The notes beneath the pieces are model-generated. The model saw only the letters and a list, made by a program, of their open reading frames with translations, was not told the origin of the DNA and did no database searches. From Desulfocurvibacter africanus subsp. africanus DSM 2603 (lineage in GTDB: Bacteria; Desulfobacterota; Desulfovibrionia; Desulfovibrionales; Desulfovibrionaceae), in assembly GCF_000422545.1 (NCBI RefSeq), contig NZ_AULZ01000005.1, positions 1 to 64,000 of the forward strand: a stretch of DNA of 64,000 nt, read 5' to 3'. The translations under genes and the position numbers were made by a program. Positions 10,191-62,883 of the stretch are shown here, piece after piece; position 1 is the stretch's first letter, and every line of letters starts with the position of its first letter.

Positions 10191-10316
10191 TAGAGCAGAT
10201 TGCTTTTAAGACGCCCGCTCCGGCGTTGACGGCGCAAGTGAATTGCGCCTATGCCTACGCGGCGGCAAGCCATGCCGACGCATGGCTTGCAGAGCATTTT
10301 CAAAAGCAAATGCTCT
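10191..10316 (+). repeat. Family A repeat (copy A3)
   Basis: Complete copy from TAGAGCAGATTGCTTTT to AAAAGCAAATGCTCT. It lies 13 bp after the stop of the minus-strand ino1 gene, with the right end nearest that gene. Confidence 0.92.
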
Positions 10317-10328
10317 CAGGCGGACGGA

Positions 10329-11432
10329 TCACCGCTCGCATTCGCCGCGGATGAACTCCTCGGTAAGGCGGCAGGCCTCGTCATCCGTATACTGCACGGG
10401 CGGGTGCTTCATGAAATAGGCCGAGGGCGAGGTGAGCGCGCCGGCCACGCCCCGCTCGCGGGCAAGCTTGAGGCAGCGGATGGCGTCGATGACCACGCCG
10501 GCCGAGTTTGGCGAGTCCTCCACGGACAGACGGCACTCCAGGCTCATGGGCACGTCGCCGAACAGGCGGCCTTCCAGGCGAATGTAGGCGACCTTGTTGT
10601 CCTTCTGCGACGGCACCCAGTCGCTGGGGCCGATATGGACATGATCACCGGTCAGATGCTGCTCGGTCTGGGATGTCACGGCCTCGGTCTTGGAAATCTT
10701 TTTGGACTGCAGCCGCTGGCGGTCGAGCATGTTCAGGAAGTCGGTGTTGCCGCCGAAGTTGAGCTGATACGTCGAGTCGATCTTGACCCCGCGGTTGCGG
10801 AACAGGCGGGTCAGGGTGCGGTGAACGATGGTCGCGCCCAGCTGCGACTTGATGTCGTCGCCGATGACCGGAATACCTGCTTGCTCGAAGCGGGCGGCCC
10901 ACTCCGGGTTGCTGACGATGAACACGGGGATGTTGTTGACCAGGCTGACCCCGGCCTCCAGGGCGCACTCGGCGTAGAAGCGCGTGGCCTGCTCCGAGCC
11001 CACGGGCAGGTAGTTGAGCAGGATTTCCGCGCCCGTCTCGCGCAGCACGCGCACGACCTCCGCCTTGTCGGGCTGCGCGGCGTCGGCCGGCGCAAAGGTG
11101 TAGCGCTCGTCATAAGCGCGCATGTGCTCGGCCATTCCATCCAGCAAGCGGCCCATGCGCACGCTCACGCCCGCGGGAGGCATGTTCGGGCAAAAAATCT
11201 TCGTGCAGTTGGGCAGACAGTGCATGGCCTCGTGCACATCCTTGCCTACCTTGCGGCGGTCGATGTCCCAGGCCGCCACGACGCGAATATCCGCCGGCGA
11301 GTAGCCGCCCAGGTCCCAATGCATGAGGCCGATGGCTTCCTCGGACTTGCCCTGCCTGTAGAATTCGATGCCCTGAAGCAGTGCGCTGGCGCAGTTGCCG
11401 ATTCCGACTATCGCTATCTTAATTTCTTTCAT
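10329..11432 (-). CDS. ino1: Myo-inositol-1-phosphate synthase
   Basis: 367 aa. Converts glucose-6-phosphate to inositol-1-phosphate using bound NAD. The N-terminal Rossmann motif KIAIVGIGNCASALLQGI and the LNFGGNTDFLNM motif are characteristic of the short prokaryotic/archaeal type. The ATG at 11432 (MKEIKIAIVG) is preferred over a GTG two codons upstream. Last gene of the long minus-strand glycan island and about 100 bp downstream of a CDP-alcohol phosphatidyltransferase, which suggests that the product is built into an inositol phospholipid. Confidence 0.93.
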   Translation of the reverse strand: MKEIKIAIVGIGNCASALLQGIEFYRQGKSEEAIGLMHWDLGGYSPADIRVVAAWDIDRRKVGKDVHEAMHCLPNCTKIFCPNMPPAGVSVRMGRLLDGMAEHMRAYDERYTFAPADAAQPDKAEVVRVLRETGAEILLNYLPVGSEQATRFYAECALEAGVSLVNNIPVFIVSNPEWAARFEQAGIPVIGDDIKSQLGATIVHRTLTRLFRNRGVKIDSTYQLNFGGNTDFLNMLDRQRLQSKKISKTEAVTSQTEQHLTGDHVHIGPSDWVPSQKDNKVAYIRLEGRLFGDVPMSLECRLSVEDSPNSAGVVIDAIRCLKLARERGVAGALTSPSAYFMKHPPVQYTDDEACRLTEEFIRGECER

Positions 11433-21302: not shown

Positions 21303-21318
21303 GCCGCCTCCAGCCAAA

Positions 21319-21442
21319 ACAGATTGCTTTTAAGACGCCCGCTCCGGCGTTGACGGCGCAAGTGAATTGCGCCTACGCCTGCTCGGCGGCAAGCCATGCC
21401 GACGCATGGCTTGCAGAGCATTTTCAAAAGCAAAATGCTCTA
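21319..21442 (+). repeat. Family A repeat (copy A4), supplies a stop codon
   Basis: Complete copy between the GT4 and radical SAM genes. The TAG that ends the radical SAM gene (21440-21442) is the first triplet of the terminal repeat TAGAGCATTTTGC. A small sequence change (CCTGCTCGGCGGC) distinguishes this copy. Confidence 0.92.
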
Positions 21443-28453: not shown

Positions 28454-28474
28454 TGAGCGTCCGGCGAACCCTTT

Positions 28475-28601
28475 AAAGCAGATTGCTTTTAAGACGCCCG
28501 CTCCGGCGTTGACGGCGCAAATAAATTGCGCCTACGCCTACGCGGCGGCTAGCCATGCCGACACATGGCTAGCAGAGCATTTTCAAAAGCAAAATGCTCT
28601 A
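28475..28601 (+). repeat. Family A repeat (copy A5)
   Basis: Complete copy 22 bp after the outer-membrane protein stop. It carries paired changes (GGCTAGCCATG against CATGGCTAGC) that keep the central stem paired, a sign that the structure is under selection. The 263 bases from here to 28864 show no other feature apart from the chemoreceptor leader. Confidence 0.92.
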
Positions 28602-51989: not shown

Positions 51990-52796
51990 ATGACTGAAGG
52001 GGTTCACCAGCGCGCCAGGCAGGTCGTGCGCTCATGGCTGGAGAGCGTCTCGGGCCGAACCGTTCACGGGCGCTCACGTCACTCGGACTTCGGGCGCAAG
52101 GCTTACGAACTCTGCAAGGGCAAGGGGCTGGAGATCGGCGCCCTGCACAACCCCTTCGACCTTGACGCCGAGGTCGTTTATTTGGACCAGCGCAAGACGG
52201 CCGAGCTACGCGCGCATTTTAAAAAGCACCCCAGGGTGCGGCGCATTTCGCAGATACAGCTCGTGTGGAAGGGCGATGCCTATCCTTTCATCGATGACAA
52301 CGCCTTCGACTTCGTCGTGAACAGCCATGTCCTTGAGCATGTCTGCAATCCGGGCCGGGTCATCCAGGAGTGGCTGCGCATCGTCCGGCCGGGCGGCATC
52401 GTGTACATGGTCGTGCCCGACAAGAATCACTGCTTCGACAGGCGCCGTGAGATCACCAGCCTCGAACACCTCATCCAGGATTACGAGGCGGACACCAAAC
52501 TCATCGAGCTTGCGCACTACCGCGACTACATCTTCAATACCGCGGGCGAGGCCGAGGTCACGCACGAGGCGAGCGAGGAGTTCGCCCAGAAGTGCTTCAA
52601 AGGCCAGACGAGCGTCCATGCGCACACCTTCACTGCCCGAAGCCTAGACGAATTCCTGCGCGCACTGGCCAAGCGTGTTCCCTTCGAGCTTGCCCTGTGC
52701 GAACAGCAACGCTCAGCGCCGCTGCACATCCATTGCGCCCTGCGCAAGGTAGGCCAGCCCGGGGTTCAAGCGCCTAATAGAGCATTTTGCTTTTGA
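51990..52796 (+). CDS. Class I SAM-dependent methyltransferase, stop supplied by repeat
   Basis: 268 aa. Motif I is LEIGALHNPFDLDAEVVYLD, a variant seen in methyltransferases of glycan and capsule clusters; the post-motif region is DFVVNSHVLEHVCNPGRVIQ and IVRPGGIVYMVVPDKNHCFD. Hydrophilic, cytoplasmic. The final residues NRAFCF and the TGA stop are encoded by a family A repeat, so the original end was probably a few codons beyond KVGQPG. Not in an operon; acceptor unknown. Confidence 0.85.
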   Translation: MTEGVHQRARQVVRSWLESVSGRTVHGRSRHSDFGRKAYELCKGKGLEIGALHNPFDLDAEVVYLDQRKTAELRAHFKKHPRVRRISQIQLVWKGDAYPFIDDNAFDFVVNSHVLEHVCNPGRVIQEWLRIVRPGGIVYMVVPDKNHCFDRRREITSLEHLIQDYEADTKLIELAHYRDYIFNTAGEAEVTHEASEEFAQKCFKGQTSVHAHTFTARSLDEFLRALAKRVPFELALCEQQRSAPLHIHCALRKVGQPGVQAPNRAFCF

Positions 52797-52908
52797 AAAT
52801 GCCCTGCAAGCCGTGCGTCGGCATGGCTTGCCGCCACGCGTAGGCGCAGGCGCAATTCACTTGCGCCGTTAACGCCGGAGCGGGCGTCTTAAAGGCAATC
52901 TGCTTTAA
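52777..52908 (-). repeat. Family A repeat (copy A6), supplies a stop codon
   Basis: Complete copy in minus orientation from TAGAGCATTTTGC to TCTGCTTTA. Its first 20 bases are translated as the last codons and stop of the methyltransferase. Confidence 0.92.
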
Positions 52909-57976: not shown

Positions 57977-58365
57977 GGGTCGTTTCCTCGCTTATGCCTT
58001 GAAGTGCATAATTCATAATTCCCTTCACCCTTCTTTTGCAACCATTCCCGCGTCTTCGGAAAGCACGGCCAGGGAAGGCCATCTCTGCCCGATTACGGCC
58101 CGCCATGCTGGCAAAAAGCCCTGATCCTGCTATCCTGCGGCATTCCGGGGGGATTGGCCTTGCACCCGGCCACACTGTTACAAGACGACAAAGAACGAGG
58201 GGGGCCGGGGTAAATCATTTCCCCCGGTCGGGGTCCAGGGGTGAAACCCCTGGCCGCCGGAGGCATATTGTACGTATCCCATGGCGCCGGGACAGGAAGC
58301 CTCCGGCGGCCAAAGGGGCCGCGCCCCTTTGGAATCCCTTTTTTGAAAACGAAGCGGGGGCGGTC
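57977..58365. other. Gap between xdhC and GT4, mostly repeat
   Basis: 389 bp between divergent genes. 57977-58196 shows nothing recognisable beyond the xdhC leader (GAGGAAA site); 58197-58332 is repeat B7; 58333-58365 is the GT4 leader with a GCGGGGGCGG purine-rich site. Confidence 0.6.
58197..58332. repeat. Family B repeat pair (copy B7)
   Basis: GGGGCCGGGGTAAATCATTT then CCCCCGG; GGGGTCCAGGGGTGAAACCC then CTGG; GGCCGCCGGAGG and its inverted copy CCTCCGGCGGCC; and CCAAAGGGGC/GCCCCTTTGG. It sits just upstream of the GT4 gene that itself contains another family B element. Confidence 0.85.
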
Positions 58366-59697
58366 ATGCGCGTGCTTCATCTGGGCAAATACTATCCTCC
58401 CGCCTTGGGGGGCATGGAAACCTTCCTGCGCGACCTGGCCACGGCCCAGGTCGTGCAAGGCTTGGAAGTGCGCGTGCTGGCCCATGCCGAGCGGCCCTGG
58501 CGGCTGGGCAATCGGGAGGTCGCGGAGGGTGTGGATGTGCGGCGCGCGGCCATTCTGGGGCGATTGGCCTTCGCGCCCCTTGCGCCAGGGTATCCCATGG
58601 CCTTGGCCGGTCTGCTGGCCGACTTCCGGCCCCAGGTAATTCATGCGCATCTGCCCAACACGAGTGCCTTTGCCCTGTTGGGCCTGTCGGCCCTGCCCGA
58701 GGCCATACGGCCCGCCCTGGTACTGCACTGGCATTCGGACGTGGTCACGGACGGCAGCCGCAGCCTGGCCAGACTCTACCCCCTGTACCGCGTCTTCGAG
58801 CAGGCCCTGTTGCGTCGGGCCGACGCCGTTGTGGCCACATCCGAGCCCTATCTGCAGGCCAGCGACTCCCTGGCCGCGCACCGAGCCAAGTGCCGGGTGA
58901 TCTCACTTGGGCTGGACCCGCTCAGGCTGCCTCAACCGTCGCCAAGCGAGATCGCCGCCGCCCGGGCGCGCACTCTAAAGCACTTTGCAAAAGAAATGAG
59001 GGTCCAGGGAAATCATTTCCCTGGCGGGAAAGAGTCTGAGAGAGGACCGAGCCGGTCTGGCAGGCAGTGCCCTCTCCCGGCTCAAATGCAAAGTGCTCTA
59101 GGCAATGACGGTTTCCTCGTCTTGGCGGCGGGCCGCTTCAGCCACTACAAGGGTTTCGAGGTGCTGGTGCGCGCGGCGGGGTTGCTGCCCGAACGAGCGC
59201 GCGTGGTTATCGCGGGTGACGGACCGCTTCGCCGGGACCTGCTGCGCCTGGCCAAAGAACTTGGCGTCGAGGATCGCGTGCGCATGCCCGGCAGCCTGCC
59301 CGAAGCGCATTTGCACGCGCTCATGGCCGGCTGCGACTGCTTCTGCCTGCCCTCGATAGCGCGAGCCGAGGCCTTCGGGCTGGTGTTGGCCGAGGCCATG
59401 CGCTTTGGCCGCCCGCTGATCTCCTCGCGGCTGACCGGCTCGGGCATGAGCGTGCTCAACGAAGAAGGGATTACCGGCCTGGCCTTCGAGCCCGGCAATG
59501 CGCTGGAGCTGGCTTCAGCGGTGCACAGACTCATGGCCGATGCGGACTTGCGCGAGCGTCTGGGACAAGCCGGCAGGAAACGTTTCGACACGCAGCTGCA
59601 CATCGCTCCCGTGTCCGCGCGGATGACGGAGCTTTACCGCGAGCTTACTGCACGAGCCAGACGCCGCCCACGAAGGGGTGGTAAGCCAGCTGCTTGA
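58366..59697 (+). CDS. Glycosyltransferase family 4 with 41-codon repeat insertion
   Basis: 443 aa from the ATG at 58366. GT-B enzyme: RVLHLGKYYPPALGGMETFL at the N-terminus, VISLGLDPLRL before the linker, then FLVLAAGRFSHYKGFEVLVR, VIAGDGPLRRDLLRLAKELG and the donor motif CLPSIARAEAFGLVLAEAMR. A family B element lies in frame between the two domains (about residues 204-244). Removing it joins AARARTL to GNDGFLVLAAG, a normal GT4 linker, so the fold should survive. It is convergent with the STT3-like gene and overlaps it by 53 bp. Probably builds the lipid-linked glycan for the neighbouring transferase. Confidence 0.9.
   Translation: MRVLHLGKYYPPALGGMETFLRDLATAQVVQGLEVRVLAHAERPWRLGNREVAEGVDVRRAAILGRLAFAPLAPGYPMALAGLLADFRPQVIHAHLPNTSAFALLGLSALPEAIRPALVLHWHSDVVTDGSRSLARLYPLYRVFEQALLRRADAVVATSEPYLQASDSLAAHRAKCRVISLGLDPLRLPQPSPSEIAAARARTLKHFAKEMRVQGNHFPGGKESERGPSRSGRQCPLPAQMQSALGNDGFLVLAAGRFSHYKGFEVLVRAAGLLPERARVVIAGDGPLRRDLLRLAKELGVEDRVRMPGSLPEAHLHALMAGCDCFCLPSIARAEAFGLVLAEAMRFGRPLISSRLTGSGMSVLNEEGITGLAFEPGNALELASAVHRLMADADLRERLGQAGRKRFDTQLHIAPVSARMTELYRELTARARRRPRRGGKPAA
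58976..59100 (+). repeat. Family B element inserted in frame in GT4 gene (copy B8)
   Basis: Bounded by TA on both sides (58976-58977 and 59099-59100). Terminal inverted repeats TAAAGCACTTTGCAAA and TAGAGCACTTTGCATTT (read on the minus strand for the right end). The inside holds GGGTCCAGGG...CCCTGG and a GAGAGGAC...CCTCTC pair. Net insertion 123 bp, divisible by three, with no stop in the gene's frame. Confidence 0.88.
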
Positions 59698-61765
59698 ATT
59701 CCTGGAAGCCCTTGGGATCTCCATATAAAAGCTGGCCGGCCACGCTGTCGTACATGGGCCGGACCAACAGCGTCAGATAGGGCGAGCCCGCCACGCGCAG
59801 GGCCACCATGCCCTCGGCGGAAGCCCCCTGGGAATGCTCCAGGCCATTTCGGCTCACCTCCACCACCATGGACAGGGGCAGGATGCCCTGGCCGATTTGC
59901 ATGGTTCCTCGGCCTTTGTCGATGGTGGCCATGGCCATCGGCACAAGCGTGGTTTCCGGCGGTGTTTTCGCCTGCGACTCGCTGAACAGACTGCCGTAAT
60001 AGTACCACCAGCCCTTGTAGATAATGTCCACCGTGAGATAGATGAACACGGGCTTACGCATGGCCGGAAACAGATAAGGCTTCCATTGGCCCGGATCGAG
60101 GCCAGCGGCGGTCAGCATCTTCTCGGTCTGTTCCGGGTCGGCGAAAACCGCGCGCAGGAGCTCGGCGGCCTGTCGCGGTCCGCCAAGCCGCTGCGCCAGG
60201 CGGCGGAAGCCCTCCACGTCGTGCGCGGCCACGAAGCGCATCCAGCGTGCGGCCAGGGCCGGATCATTGGAGGCCAAGGGCAGCGAGGCCAGGAAGATGC
60301 GCTCCGGATCCTGGGAGCCGCCGTCGATCAACGTAGGCACCTTTGCGAAGTACTGCAGAAAATAGCCCTGGTCCCACCAGTTCCAGAACAGGCCGGAGCT
60401 GGAGCCGGCCGAACCGACGCTCATGGCCAGGGCTGCCTGCGCGGTATTGAAGGCGGGATGCACAGGCCGGGTCAGGCTGGCCCAGACTCCGGGCGCGGCC
60501 AATGTCATGGCCAGCAGCCCGGCCAGGGCCAGGCGCATTGCCGGGCGGAGCCGGGCGATTCCGGGCCTGGCGGCGAGGGTGCCTGCCAGCAGGGACAGAC
60601 CCAGAGCATAGGCCGGCACCAGGAAGATGACGAAACGCTGGGCAAAGCCAGCCAACGCACCCAGGAGAACAAATGGCAGGATAAGCATCAGCGCCGCCCA
60701 GTCGCGCCGAAGCGCGGCCAGGGCCAGACCCGCAAGGGATGCCGCGAGCGGAAGCCAGCCTCCCGCCAGATCCTGAGGCAAACGGCTGATCTCCAGGGGC
60801 GTCAGCTCGGAGATGGACTGCCCCACTTCGGCGAATGCGCCGCTGCTTTGTTTGGTGATGAGACCCAGGTGGGCCAGGGCCGAATCTCCCAGGGACGTAA
60901 AGCCGGCCAGAGCCTGGGGCAGGTGACGGTGCAGGCCCAAGCCCAGGAAGCCCAGGCCAGCGGCCAGCAGAAGCAGCAGCCCGAGCTTGGCCAGCCGTTC
61001 GGTCCTGGATGCCGGAGCCATGAAACTGAGGCCGTAGGCCAAGCAGAACAGCGGCAGGGCCAGCAGGCCGACGCTGGGCCACCACAGGGCCAAGCCGACT
61101 ATCCCGGCGGCGCACAGCAGCAGTTGTGCCGCACGGACGCGCCACGATCCGGGCGGCTGTTCAGGCTCGTTCTGTACCTGCCGGCTCCGGGCGCTCCAAT
61201 AGCCCCAAGGGCCAAAGGCGAACCCGGTCAACCCCAACGCGGCCAGGACGGGAAAGAACAAATTGAGCGGATCGGTGTCGAACCAGCCCAGGGAGCAACG
61301 CACGAACCAGAACGGGCTGGCTGCCCCGGCCAAGCCCGCCGCAAGACCTCCCCATGGCCCGGCCACGGCCCAGCCGGCCAGAGCCAGGGCCAAACTCGAC
61401 AGCACGGCCAGGGCTGGCGGCAGGTAAAAGGCAAGCTCGCGCATGGGGATGGATAGGGTCTTGTGCAGCGCGGAGGCCAGGGCGCTCACGGGCGGAACAT
61501 GTTCCGGCCGTTTAATCTGGCCGGGCCGCAGCTCATCCCTGTCGCGGTACTCGCCGCTCGCGTGCTCCTCGGCCAGGCGCAAATAGTAATAGCCATCGGC
61601 CGTGGTCAGCAGCGGCTGTCCGGCCACGAAGGTCGAGCCGCGCTGATTCGTCCAGTCCGGCAGGCGCGCCAGGTGCAGCCCCAGCGTCCAGGCCGCCGTG
61701 ACGATCAGCACCAGGAGCAGGATCGAAAAGCGTCCTTCCGTGCCGTGCGCGTTGTTCGAAGCCAT
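59645..61765 (-). CDS. STT3/PglB-type oligosaccharyltransferase
   Basis: 706 aa. Transfers a lipid-linked oligosaccharide to Asn of exported proteins. About 12 N-terminal membrane helices; the first luminal loop has the metal/acceptor motif TTADGYYYLRLAEEH, and the second has GWFDTDPLN. The periplasmic part starts with GLFWNWWDQGYFLQYFAKVP: the family motif WWDYG is WWDQG here, a form I believe is usual for desulfovibrios. DGGSQDPERIF follows. Separated by six bases from DUF2304. Its 3' end overlaps the convergent GT4 gene. Confidence 0.92.
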   Translation of the reverse strand: MASNNAHGTEGRFSILLLVLIVTAAWTLGLHLARLPDWTNQRGSTFVAGQPLLTTADGYYYLRLAEEHASGEYRDRDELRPGQIKRPEHVPPVSALASALHKTLSIPMRELAFYLPPALAVLSSLALALAGWAVAGPWGGLAAGLAGAASPFWFVRCSLGWFDTDPLNLFFPVLAALGLTGFAFGPWGYWSARSRQVQNEPEQPPGSWRVRAAQLLLCAAGIVGLALWWPSVGLLALPLFCLAYGLSFMAPASRTERLAKLGLLLLLAAGLGFLGLGLHRHLPQALAGFTSLGDSALAHLGLITKQSSGAFAEVGQSISELTPLEISRLPQDLAGGWLPLAASLAGLALAALRRDWAALMLILPFVLLGALAGFAQRFVIFLVPAYALGLSLLAGTLAARPGIARLRPAMRLALAGLLAMTLAAPGVWASLTRPVHPAFNTAQAALAMSVGSAGSSSGLFWNWWDQGYFLQYFAKVPTLIDGGSQDPERIFLASLPLASNDPALAARWMRFVAAHDVEGFRRLAQRLGGPRQAAELLRAVFADPEQTEKMLTAAGLDPGQWKPYLFPAMRKPVFIYLTVDIIYKGWWYYYGSLFSESQAKTPPETTLVPMAMATIDKGRGTMQIGQGILPLSMVVEVSRNGLEHSQGASAEGMVALRVAGSPYLTLLVRPMYDSVAGQLLYGDPKGFQEFKQLAYHPFVGGVWLVQ

Positions 61766-61771
61766 GGCCGA

Positions 61772-62176
61772 TTACTGCTTGGGGTGCGTGGAACGCCGTT
61801 CGGAATCAGCGCGGAGCGTAGAATCTTGACTTATGCGCTCATTGTGCTCCAGGCGCTCCTCCATGATCGCCAGACGCTGGGTCAGGCGACGGAGCTTGAC
61901 CTCCATCTTGGAGCGCTCGATGTCCATGGTCAAAATCTTCAGCACGTAGAGCACTCCGGCCAGAATGAAGATGAGGCTCGGCGGATAGGACACTCCCAGC
62001 CAGCCCGCCAGCACGTCGGAGATTCGCGGGAAAACGCCCAGGACGAAAATGGCCGCGGCCATGGACAGCCACCACACGCTGTAACGCGTGTAGAGGTGGT
62101 CGCGGCGCACCAGATAAATGATGATCAGGGCTATGCTCACGCCCAGAATGCCGGTGGTCCATTGCAGGCTGATCAT
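61772..62176 (-). CDS. DUF2304 membrane protein
   Basis: 134 aa. Three membrane helices (TTGILGVSIALIIIYLVRRD, YSVWWLSMAAAIFVLGVFPR, PPSLIFILAGVLYVLKILTM) and a coiled-coil tail (LRRLTQRLAIMEERLEHNER), the DUF2304 plan. Such proteins lie next to polyprenol-phosphate glycosyltransferases and may anchor them to the membrane. GGGGAGG four bases upstream; the start overlaps the GT2 stop (ATGA). Confidence 0.88.
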   Translation of the reverse strand: MISLQWTTGILGVSIALIIIYLVRRDHLYTRYSVWWLSMAAAIFVLGVFPRISDVLAGWLGVSYPPSLIFILAGVLYVLKILTMDIERSKMEVKLRRLTQRLAIMEERLEHNERISQDSTLRADSERRSTHPKQ

Positions 62177-62883
62177 TGGTCCTCCCCGGCATTATCCGAT
62201 TGGCGGGAACCGCGCACGCTCTTCGACATTGCCAGGATGGAACTGTGCAGCATGTATTTGCCCACCGAAGGCCAGGTGTTGAAAATACGCGAATGGCCGC
62301 TCAGGCGGCAGGCCATGGCGATGGGCGTTTCCACGATGCGCAGGCCGCTCCCGCGCAGCAGGAAGAGCACGCCAAGGTCCTGGTAATCCAGAAGCGTGGC
62401 GCGTGGTCCGGCCAGCAGTTCCATGGCCCGACGATTATAAGCCCTGAAGCCGGAAGTCAGGTCGCCCACGCCCAGCCCGCCGATACCCCGGAAAAGACCC
62501 CAGGCGACTTGCCGCAAGGGGCTGCCCCGGCTCGTGCAAGAGCCGATGGCCGCATCGGCCCGGCCGCGCAGCACCGGTTCCAGCACCACGGGCAGGCTTT
62601 GCACGGGGTGCTGCCCGTCGGCATCCATGGTCACGCAGCGCTTGTAGCCTCTGCTCAGGGCGTAGCGAATGCCGGCCTGCATGGCGCCCCATGCGCCAAG
62701 CCCCAGCCGCAAGCTCAGGACGGTCGCCCCGGCCCTGCGCGCGGCGTCGGCGGTTTCGTCGTTGCTGGCGTCATCCACCACAACCACGGGCAAGCCCAGG
62801 TCCGAGACCACGGCTCCGGCCACGAGATGCACCGACTCCTGCTCGTTCTTGGCTGGGATGATGACCAGGGTTTCCGGCGTCAT
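62173..62883 (-). CDS. Polyprenol-phosphate glycosyltransferase (DPM1-like GT2)
   Basis: 236 aa. GT-A fold: TLVIIPAKNEQESVHLVAGA, PVVVVDDASNDETADAARRA, CVTMDADGQHPVQSLPVVLE with the DAD metal motif, and DLTSGFRAYNRRAMELL. No membrane helices of its own, so the DUF2304 partner probably holds it at the membrane. It likely charges undecaprenyl or dolichyl phosphate with one sugar for the STT3-like enzyme. First gene of the three-gene glycosylation operon. Confidence 0.92.
   Translation of the reverse strand: MTPETLVIIPAKNEQESVHLVAGAVVSDLGLPVVVVDDASNDETADAARRAGATVLSLRLGLGAWGAMQAGIRYALSRGYKRCVTMDADGQHPVQSLPVVLEPVLRGRADAAIGSCTSRGSPLRQVAWGLFRGIGGLGVGDLTSGFRAYNRRAMELLAGPRATLLDYQDLGVLFLLRGSGLRIVETPIAMACRLSGHSRIFNTWPSVGKYMLHSSILAMSKSVRGSRQSDNAGEDQ

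Follow-up and report, generated by a model that had tools for sequence, protein, structure and literature searches.

The glycosyltransferase gene and its inserted repeat

The window, by which we mean the whole stretch of 64,000 nucleotides that was analysed, contains a glycosyltransferase (GT) gene with a short repeat inside its open reading frame (ORF). In Pfam, the ORF matched Glycos_transf_1 (2.4e-36) and Glyco_trans_4_4 (6.5e-23), so that both GT4 domains, N- and C-terminal, are represented. The E-x7-E motif of GT4 enzymes was intact in the alignment, and a fold search with the predicted model returned GT-B enzymes as the best matches, among them MshA, sucrose-phosphate synthase and BshA. 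With both GT-B domains and the motif present, the product belongs to the GT4 class. The features of the locus are as follows.

58366..59697, + strand: GT4 glycosyltransferase ORF, 443 aa, ATG at 58366, stop at 59695-59697; carries the element
58976..59100, + strand: family-B MITE, 125 bp with both TA; 123 bp net, residues 205-245
58976..58989, + strand: left terminal inverted repeat TAAAGCACTTTGCA; 14/14 against the right end of the IS630 element at C35
58976..58977, no strand: TA target dinucleotide, left copy, at codon positions 2-3 (CTA); duplication seen in sister copies
59004..59024, + strand: inner palindrome 1, CCAGGGAAATCATTTCCCTGG, conserved family-wide
59032..59083, + strand: inner hairpin 2, a longer variant with 18 more bases than the 107-bp form
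59087..59100, - strand: right terminal inverted repeat TAGAGCACTTTGCA; 13/14 against the IS630 right end
59099..59100, no strand: TA target dinucleotide, right copy

The element reads TAAAGCACTTTGCA...TGCAAAGTGCTCTA, and its 14-bp inverted ends are complementary at 13 of 14 positions. When one TA is taken as original, the net addition is 41 stop-free codons. A length below about 300 bp, inverted ends and the absence of a transposase ORF are the marks of a MITE, and this copy has all three. Its RNA was predicted to fold strongly on both strands (z -3.7 and -6.1); Rfam contained no match to it. The first-pass annotation of this DNA had described a 123-bp element with inverted ends and TA borders that adds 41 in-frame codons to the linker of the GT4 protein, and we found all of this again. 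The end sequence that it gave, TAGAGC, is true of the right end only; the left end is TAAAGC.

Upstream of the gene, the window carries a further inverted-repeat stretch at 58202-58341 (GGTCCAGGGGTGAAACCCCTGGCCGCCGGAGGC...) and, at 58310-58341, a terminator-like hairpin with a T-run. A search of the region for sigma-70 promoter-like sites found none. At the other side, an STT3/PglB-like oligosaccharyltransferase gene (59645-62883, - strand) is convergent with the GT gene and overlaps its 3' end, and is followed by DUF2304 and GT2 genes. This neighbourhood is possibly a protein-glycosylation set.

The insert was absent from the GT homologues compared. The nearest of these are only about 30-51% identical to the protein, and one homologue comes from a Desulfovibrionaceae MAG. 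The comparison with an empty site is one at the protein level; a scan of viral contigs for relatives of the protein found none. The linker, measured from the VIPLG to the GR motif, comprises 22-42 residues in 35 homologues, 73 in this protein and 32 when the insert is left out. In several homologues sharing an FSHY/FAHY variant it is exactly 33 residues long. With the element taken out, the protein would run ...RART-L-GNDGF... across the site. The linker lengths bear out the proposal that removal of the element restores a family-like linker.

Family B in the genome

The genome (4.40 Mb in 40 contigs, referred to by C numbers) contained 42 matches to family B in a DNA search, in which the copy next closest to the GT-gene element had an E value of 1e-34. 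A covariance model built from 17 copies, with at most 150 candidates scored, gave at least 143 matches (E <=0.001). These numerous copies lie at unrelated sites, as expected of a dispersed MITE, and the membership of the GT-gene element in the family is far above chance. Full copies are mostly 104-116 bp long; the GT-gene copy is longer by the 18 bases in its second hairpin. TA is retained at the two ends in 46 of the 116 copies that were extracted.

One 114-bp subfamily (TACAGCACCTTGC...) is represented by six identical copies with unrelated flanks, at C1:353262, C5:9058, C8:124309, C8:147538, C10:95678 and C14:22429. Identity at unrelated sites shows that family B moved recently, in a burst. 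The closest copy to the GT-gene element, on the other hand, is 88% identical, and the insertion in the GT gene may thus not be very recent.

At the cut-off used, 4 of 58 related genomes had family-B matches, all weak and partly confined to the core. Full-length family B is confined to its own genome among 60 genomes searched, and a literature search found no report of such repeats in Desulfovibrio-type bacteria. The two-hairpin core also occurs without IS630-like ends, at C19:60428-60490, C3:16580-16636 (in the window) and C1:293996-294088, and so may predate the mobile form or move in another way.

An IS630-type element with matching ends

Four DDE_3 (IS630-type) matches were found in the genome. 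The element at C35:2-986 is 985 bp long (DDE_3, 8e-37), reads TAAAGCAACTTGCA...TGCAAAGTGCTTTA, and encodes orfA and orfB in different frames. Bordered by TA, its ends are TAAAGCA..TTGCA. Contig C20 terminates in 95 bp with 100% identity to the right end of this element, of which the genome therefore has at least two copies.

We compared its right end with both ends of the GT-gene element. The left end agreed at 14/14 positions and the right at 13/14; over the first 26 bases, 20-21 were shared. The string AGCACTTTGCA occurs six times in 4.4 Mb: at both ends of the GT-gene copy, at ends of other family-B copies (on C4 and on C12), and where the IS630 element has its right end, on C35 as well as C20. 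Its reversed control does not occur in the genome. Likeness to the ends of a resident autonomous element is what is expected of elements moved by IS630/Tc1-mariner transposases, and the C35 element is most likely the mobiliser of the GT-gene element. Judged from its ends alone, its transposase plausibly plays this role. The two differ in content, as the C35 element carries a two-ORF DDE transposase and the GT-gene element is gene-free.

The first-pass annotation had taken the element for a hybrid, with ends of another repeat family, family A, around a family-B inside. End-by-end comparison did not support this: family-A ends agreed with the left end at 11/14 positions and with the right end at best at 12/14. 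The ends are ordinary family-B ends and fit the IS630-type element better. Of the accompanying suggestion that families A and B share one mobilising enzyme, the family-B part gains from the matching IS630-type element, which plausibly serves this family; that the same transposase is common to family A is possible.

Insertion at TA

Three family-B copies are nested in family-A repeats, and excising them with a single TA restores the family-A sequence. In the case of C2:47021, the rejoined flanks aligned to family A over 125 columns, gap-free and with 93.6% identity. These empty sites show that family B inserts at TA and duplicates it, as IS630/Tc1-mariner elements do. The duplication is seen in these sister copies; for the GT-gene copy, the evidence consists of its TA borders and the protein homologues.

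Family B has landed repeatedly, at C2:47021, C1:353262 and C39:265945, on a TA near one family-A end (GGGCGTCT-TA-AAAGCAAT), and the IS630 element on C35 adjoins a family-A copy at the same TA-bearing place. Family A is a 128-bp repeat, present in the window at 28474-28601, 21315-21442, 52778-52907, 10191-10330 and at the window start. It is far more uniform than family B: at least 41 matches were scored, almost all of them with 95-99% identity, and a first look at the genome gave 369 candidates.

Reading frame of the repeat

Neither the GT-gene copy nor the 107-bp form contains a stop on either strand when the TA occupies codon positions 2-3; in each of the other two phases both contain one in every case. 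Among the 46 copies that extend from TA to TA, 27 are open in this phase on the plus strand and 40 on the minus strand, and in 23 the net length is a multiple of three. In 29 long ORFs of the window, 19% of TA dinucleotides lie in phase 2-3. Taken together, these counts of phase, length and TA lead us to expect that a fair proportion of insertions into genes will be read through, with no need for coding adaptation. For a repeat with one open phase out of three on both strands, the null expectation here is chance read-through in about one fifth of gene insertions, and in-frame insertion alone is thus no proof of co-option.

We then surveyed about 110 copies with readable flanks on the basis of codon usage. 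Most had at most one coding flank, and only the GT-gene copy lay in frame and stop-free inside a gene. The copy at C39:285797 has coding flanks on one strand but is out of frame, with two stops. The sensitivity of the survey is limited, as stricter thresholds missed the GT-gene copy that laxer settings find; settings with shorter flanks added a handful of weak candidates, each interrupted by stops within the element.

In the GT gene, the ORF is open across the insert, an in-frame read-through of the host gene of the kind seen with Rickettsia palindromic elements (RPEs). The flanks scored as host-like coding sequence (+16 and +24), the insert as foreign in the same frame (-17.7). An AlphaFold2 model from a five-sequence alignment (pTM 0.79) was mostly confident in both domains. 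In this model the linker helix runs to residue 215 and pLDDT falls below 50 for residues 216-246, and most of the insert is accordingly predicted to be disordered.

Discussion

Taking these results into account, we consider it highly probable that an IS630-family transposase placed a family-B MITE in the linker of a GT4 glycosyltransferase, where it is tolerated as a mostly disordered loop rather than kept for a selected function. The transposase, most likely that of the C35 element, would move the family-B element in trans. Insertion would have taken place at the TA of a linker codon CTA, with duplication of the TA. With a net 123 bp, a multiple of three, and the TA at the stop-free codon positions 2-3, the ribosome should read through and thereby lengthen the segment between the two GT-B domains by 41 residues. 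The enzyme would presumably remain active and the insertion would be close to neutral.

The main rival reading is loss of activity, in which the insertion in effect inactivated the glycosyltransferase and left a young pseudogene, whose intact appearance comes merely from the chance in-frame arrival of the element. We regard this as possible, although the less probable account. Forty-one residues that are poorly structured in the model lie at the hinge of a two-domain enzyme, and the strongly folded RNA of the element (-52.6 kcal/mol, z -3.7, for its hairpins in the mRNA) makes an effect on GT-gene expression possible, which could be a lowering. Intragenic family-B copies are otherwise almost absent from the survey, so that selection appears to act against insertion into genes. 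Nevertheless, the remaining ORF is intact, its codon usage is host-like and the conserved GT4 residues are kept. No frameshift or stop has accumulated in spite of 12% divergence from the nearest relative copy.

On the tolerated-loop reading, the segment most likely has no selected new function. That the insert was co-opted, its 41 residues providing a new partner, localisation or hinge behaviour that is kept by selection, seems unlikely to us. The reading frame is maintained, and new interactions could matter next to the convergent STT3/PglB-like gene and the DUF2304 and GT2 genes. The segment nevertheless retains the foreign codon usage of the repeat and is mostly predicted to be disordered. 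The open phase is also common in many copies outside genes, so the open frame requires no selection. We give still less credence to the specific version in which a domesticated MITE segment alters GT-B domain motion or partner choice in the nearby oligosaccharyltransferase gene set.

It is very improbable that family B is a coding-adapted repeat that enters genes repeatedly in frame, in the manner of RPEs. The resemblance is real in that family B is a palindromic repeat of 100-150 bp with one phase often open on both strands and a net length divisible by three in half of the TA-to-TA copies. The GT-gene copy lies in frame in a protein gene, and its linker location, probably an exposed and flexible place, fits the sites reported for RPEs (PMC10969869, PMC3767692). 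RPEs are genic many times (PMC10969869), whereas family B provides one clear case in about 110 copies, and we reject such a coding specialisation on our survey, which showed no recurrence within genes. Family B has a matching IS630 element; RPEs are not known to have an agreed transposase. Finally, an assembly error that set a repeat copy inside the gene can practically be dismissed: the genome is a 40-contig draft in which repeats or IS copies form the ends of some contigs, but this copy lies well inside a 290-kb contig with exact TA borders, and reads from other copies could hardly have collapsed here when their identity to it does not exceed 92% over any part or 88% over most of its length.

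A closer parallel is the RUP of pneumococcus, a 107-bp MITE with ends like those of IS630-Spn1 (PMC3049150). Both families have a common form of about 107 bp, IS630-like terminal repeats, target duplication, many copies and strong structure (PMC3049150). The hosts are unrelated, and the family-B core is GC-rich with two hairpins whereas RUP is AT-rich. In addition, the genic RUP cases described in PMC3049150 disrupt their genes, unlike the GT-gene copy, which is in frame. Family B is a RUP-like MITE of a known type, and the GT gene offers one clean instance of something already known, the incorporation of a short mobile repeat into a protein frame. Visible together in this case are the element and its family, the IS that probably mobilises it, the rule for the target, and how long the ancestral linker was. 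As the in-frame segment can be cleanly deleted, its cost or benefit would be measurable.
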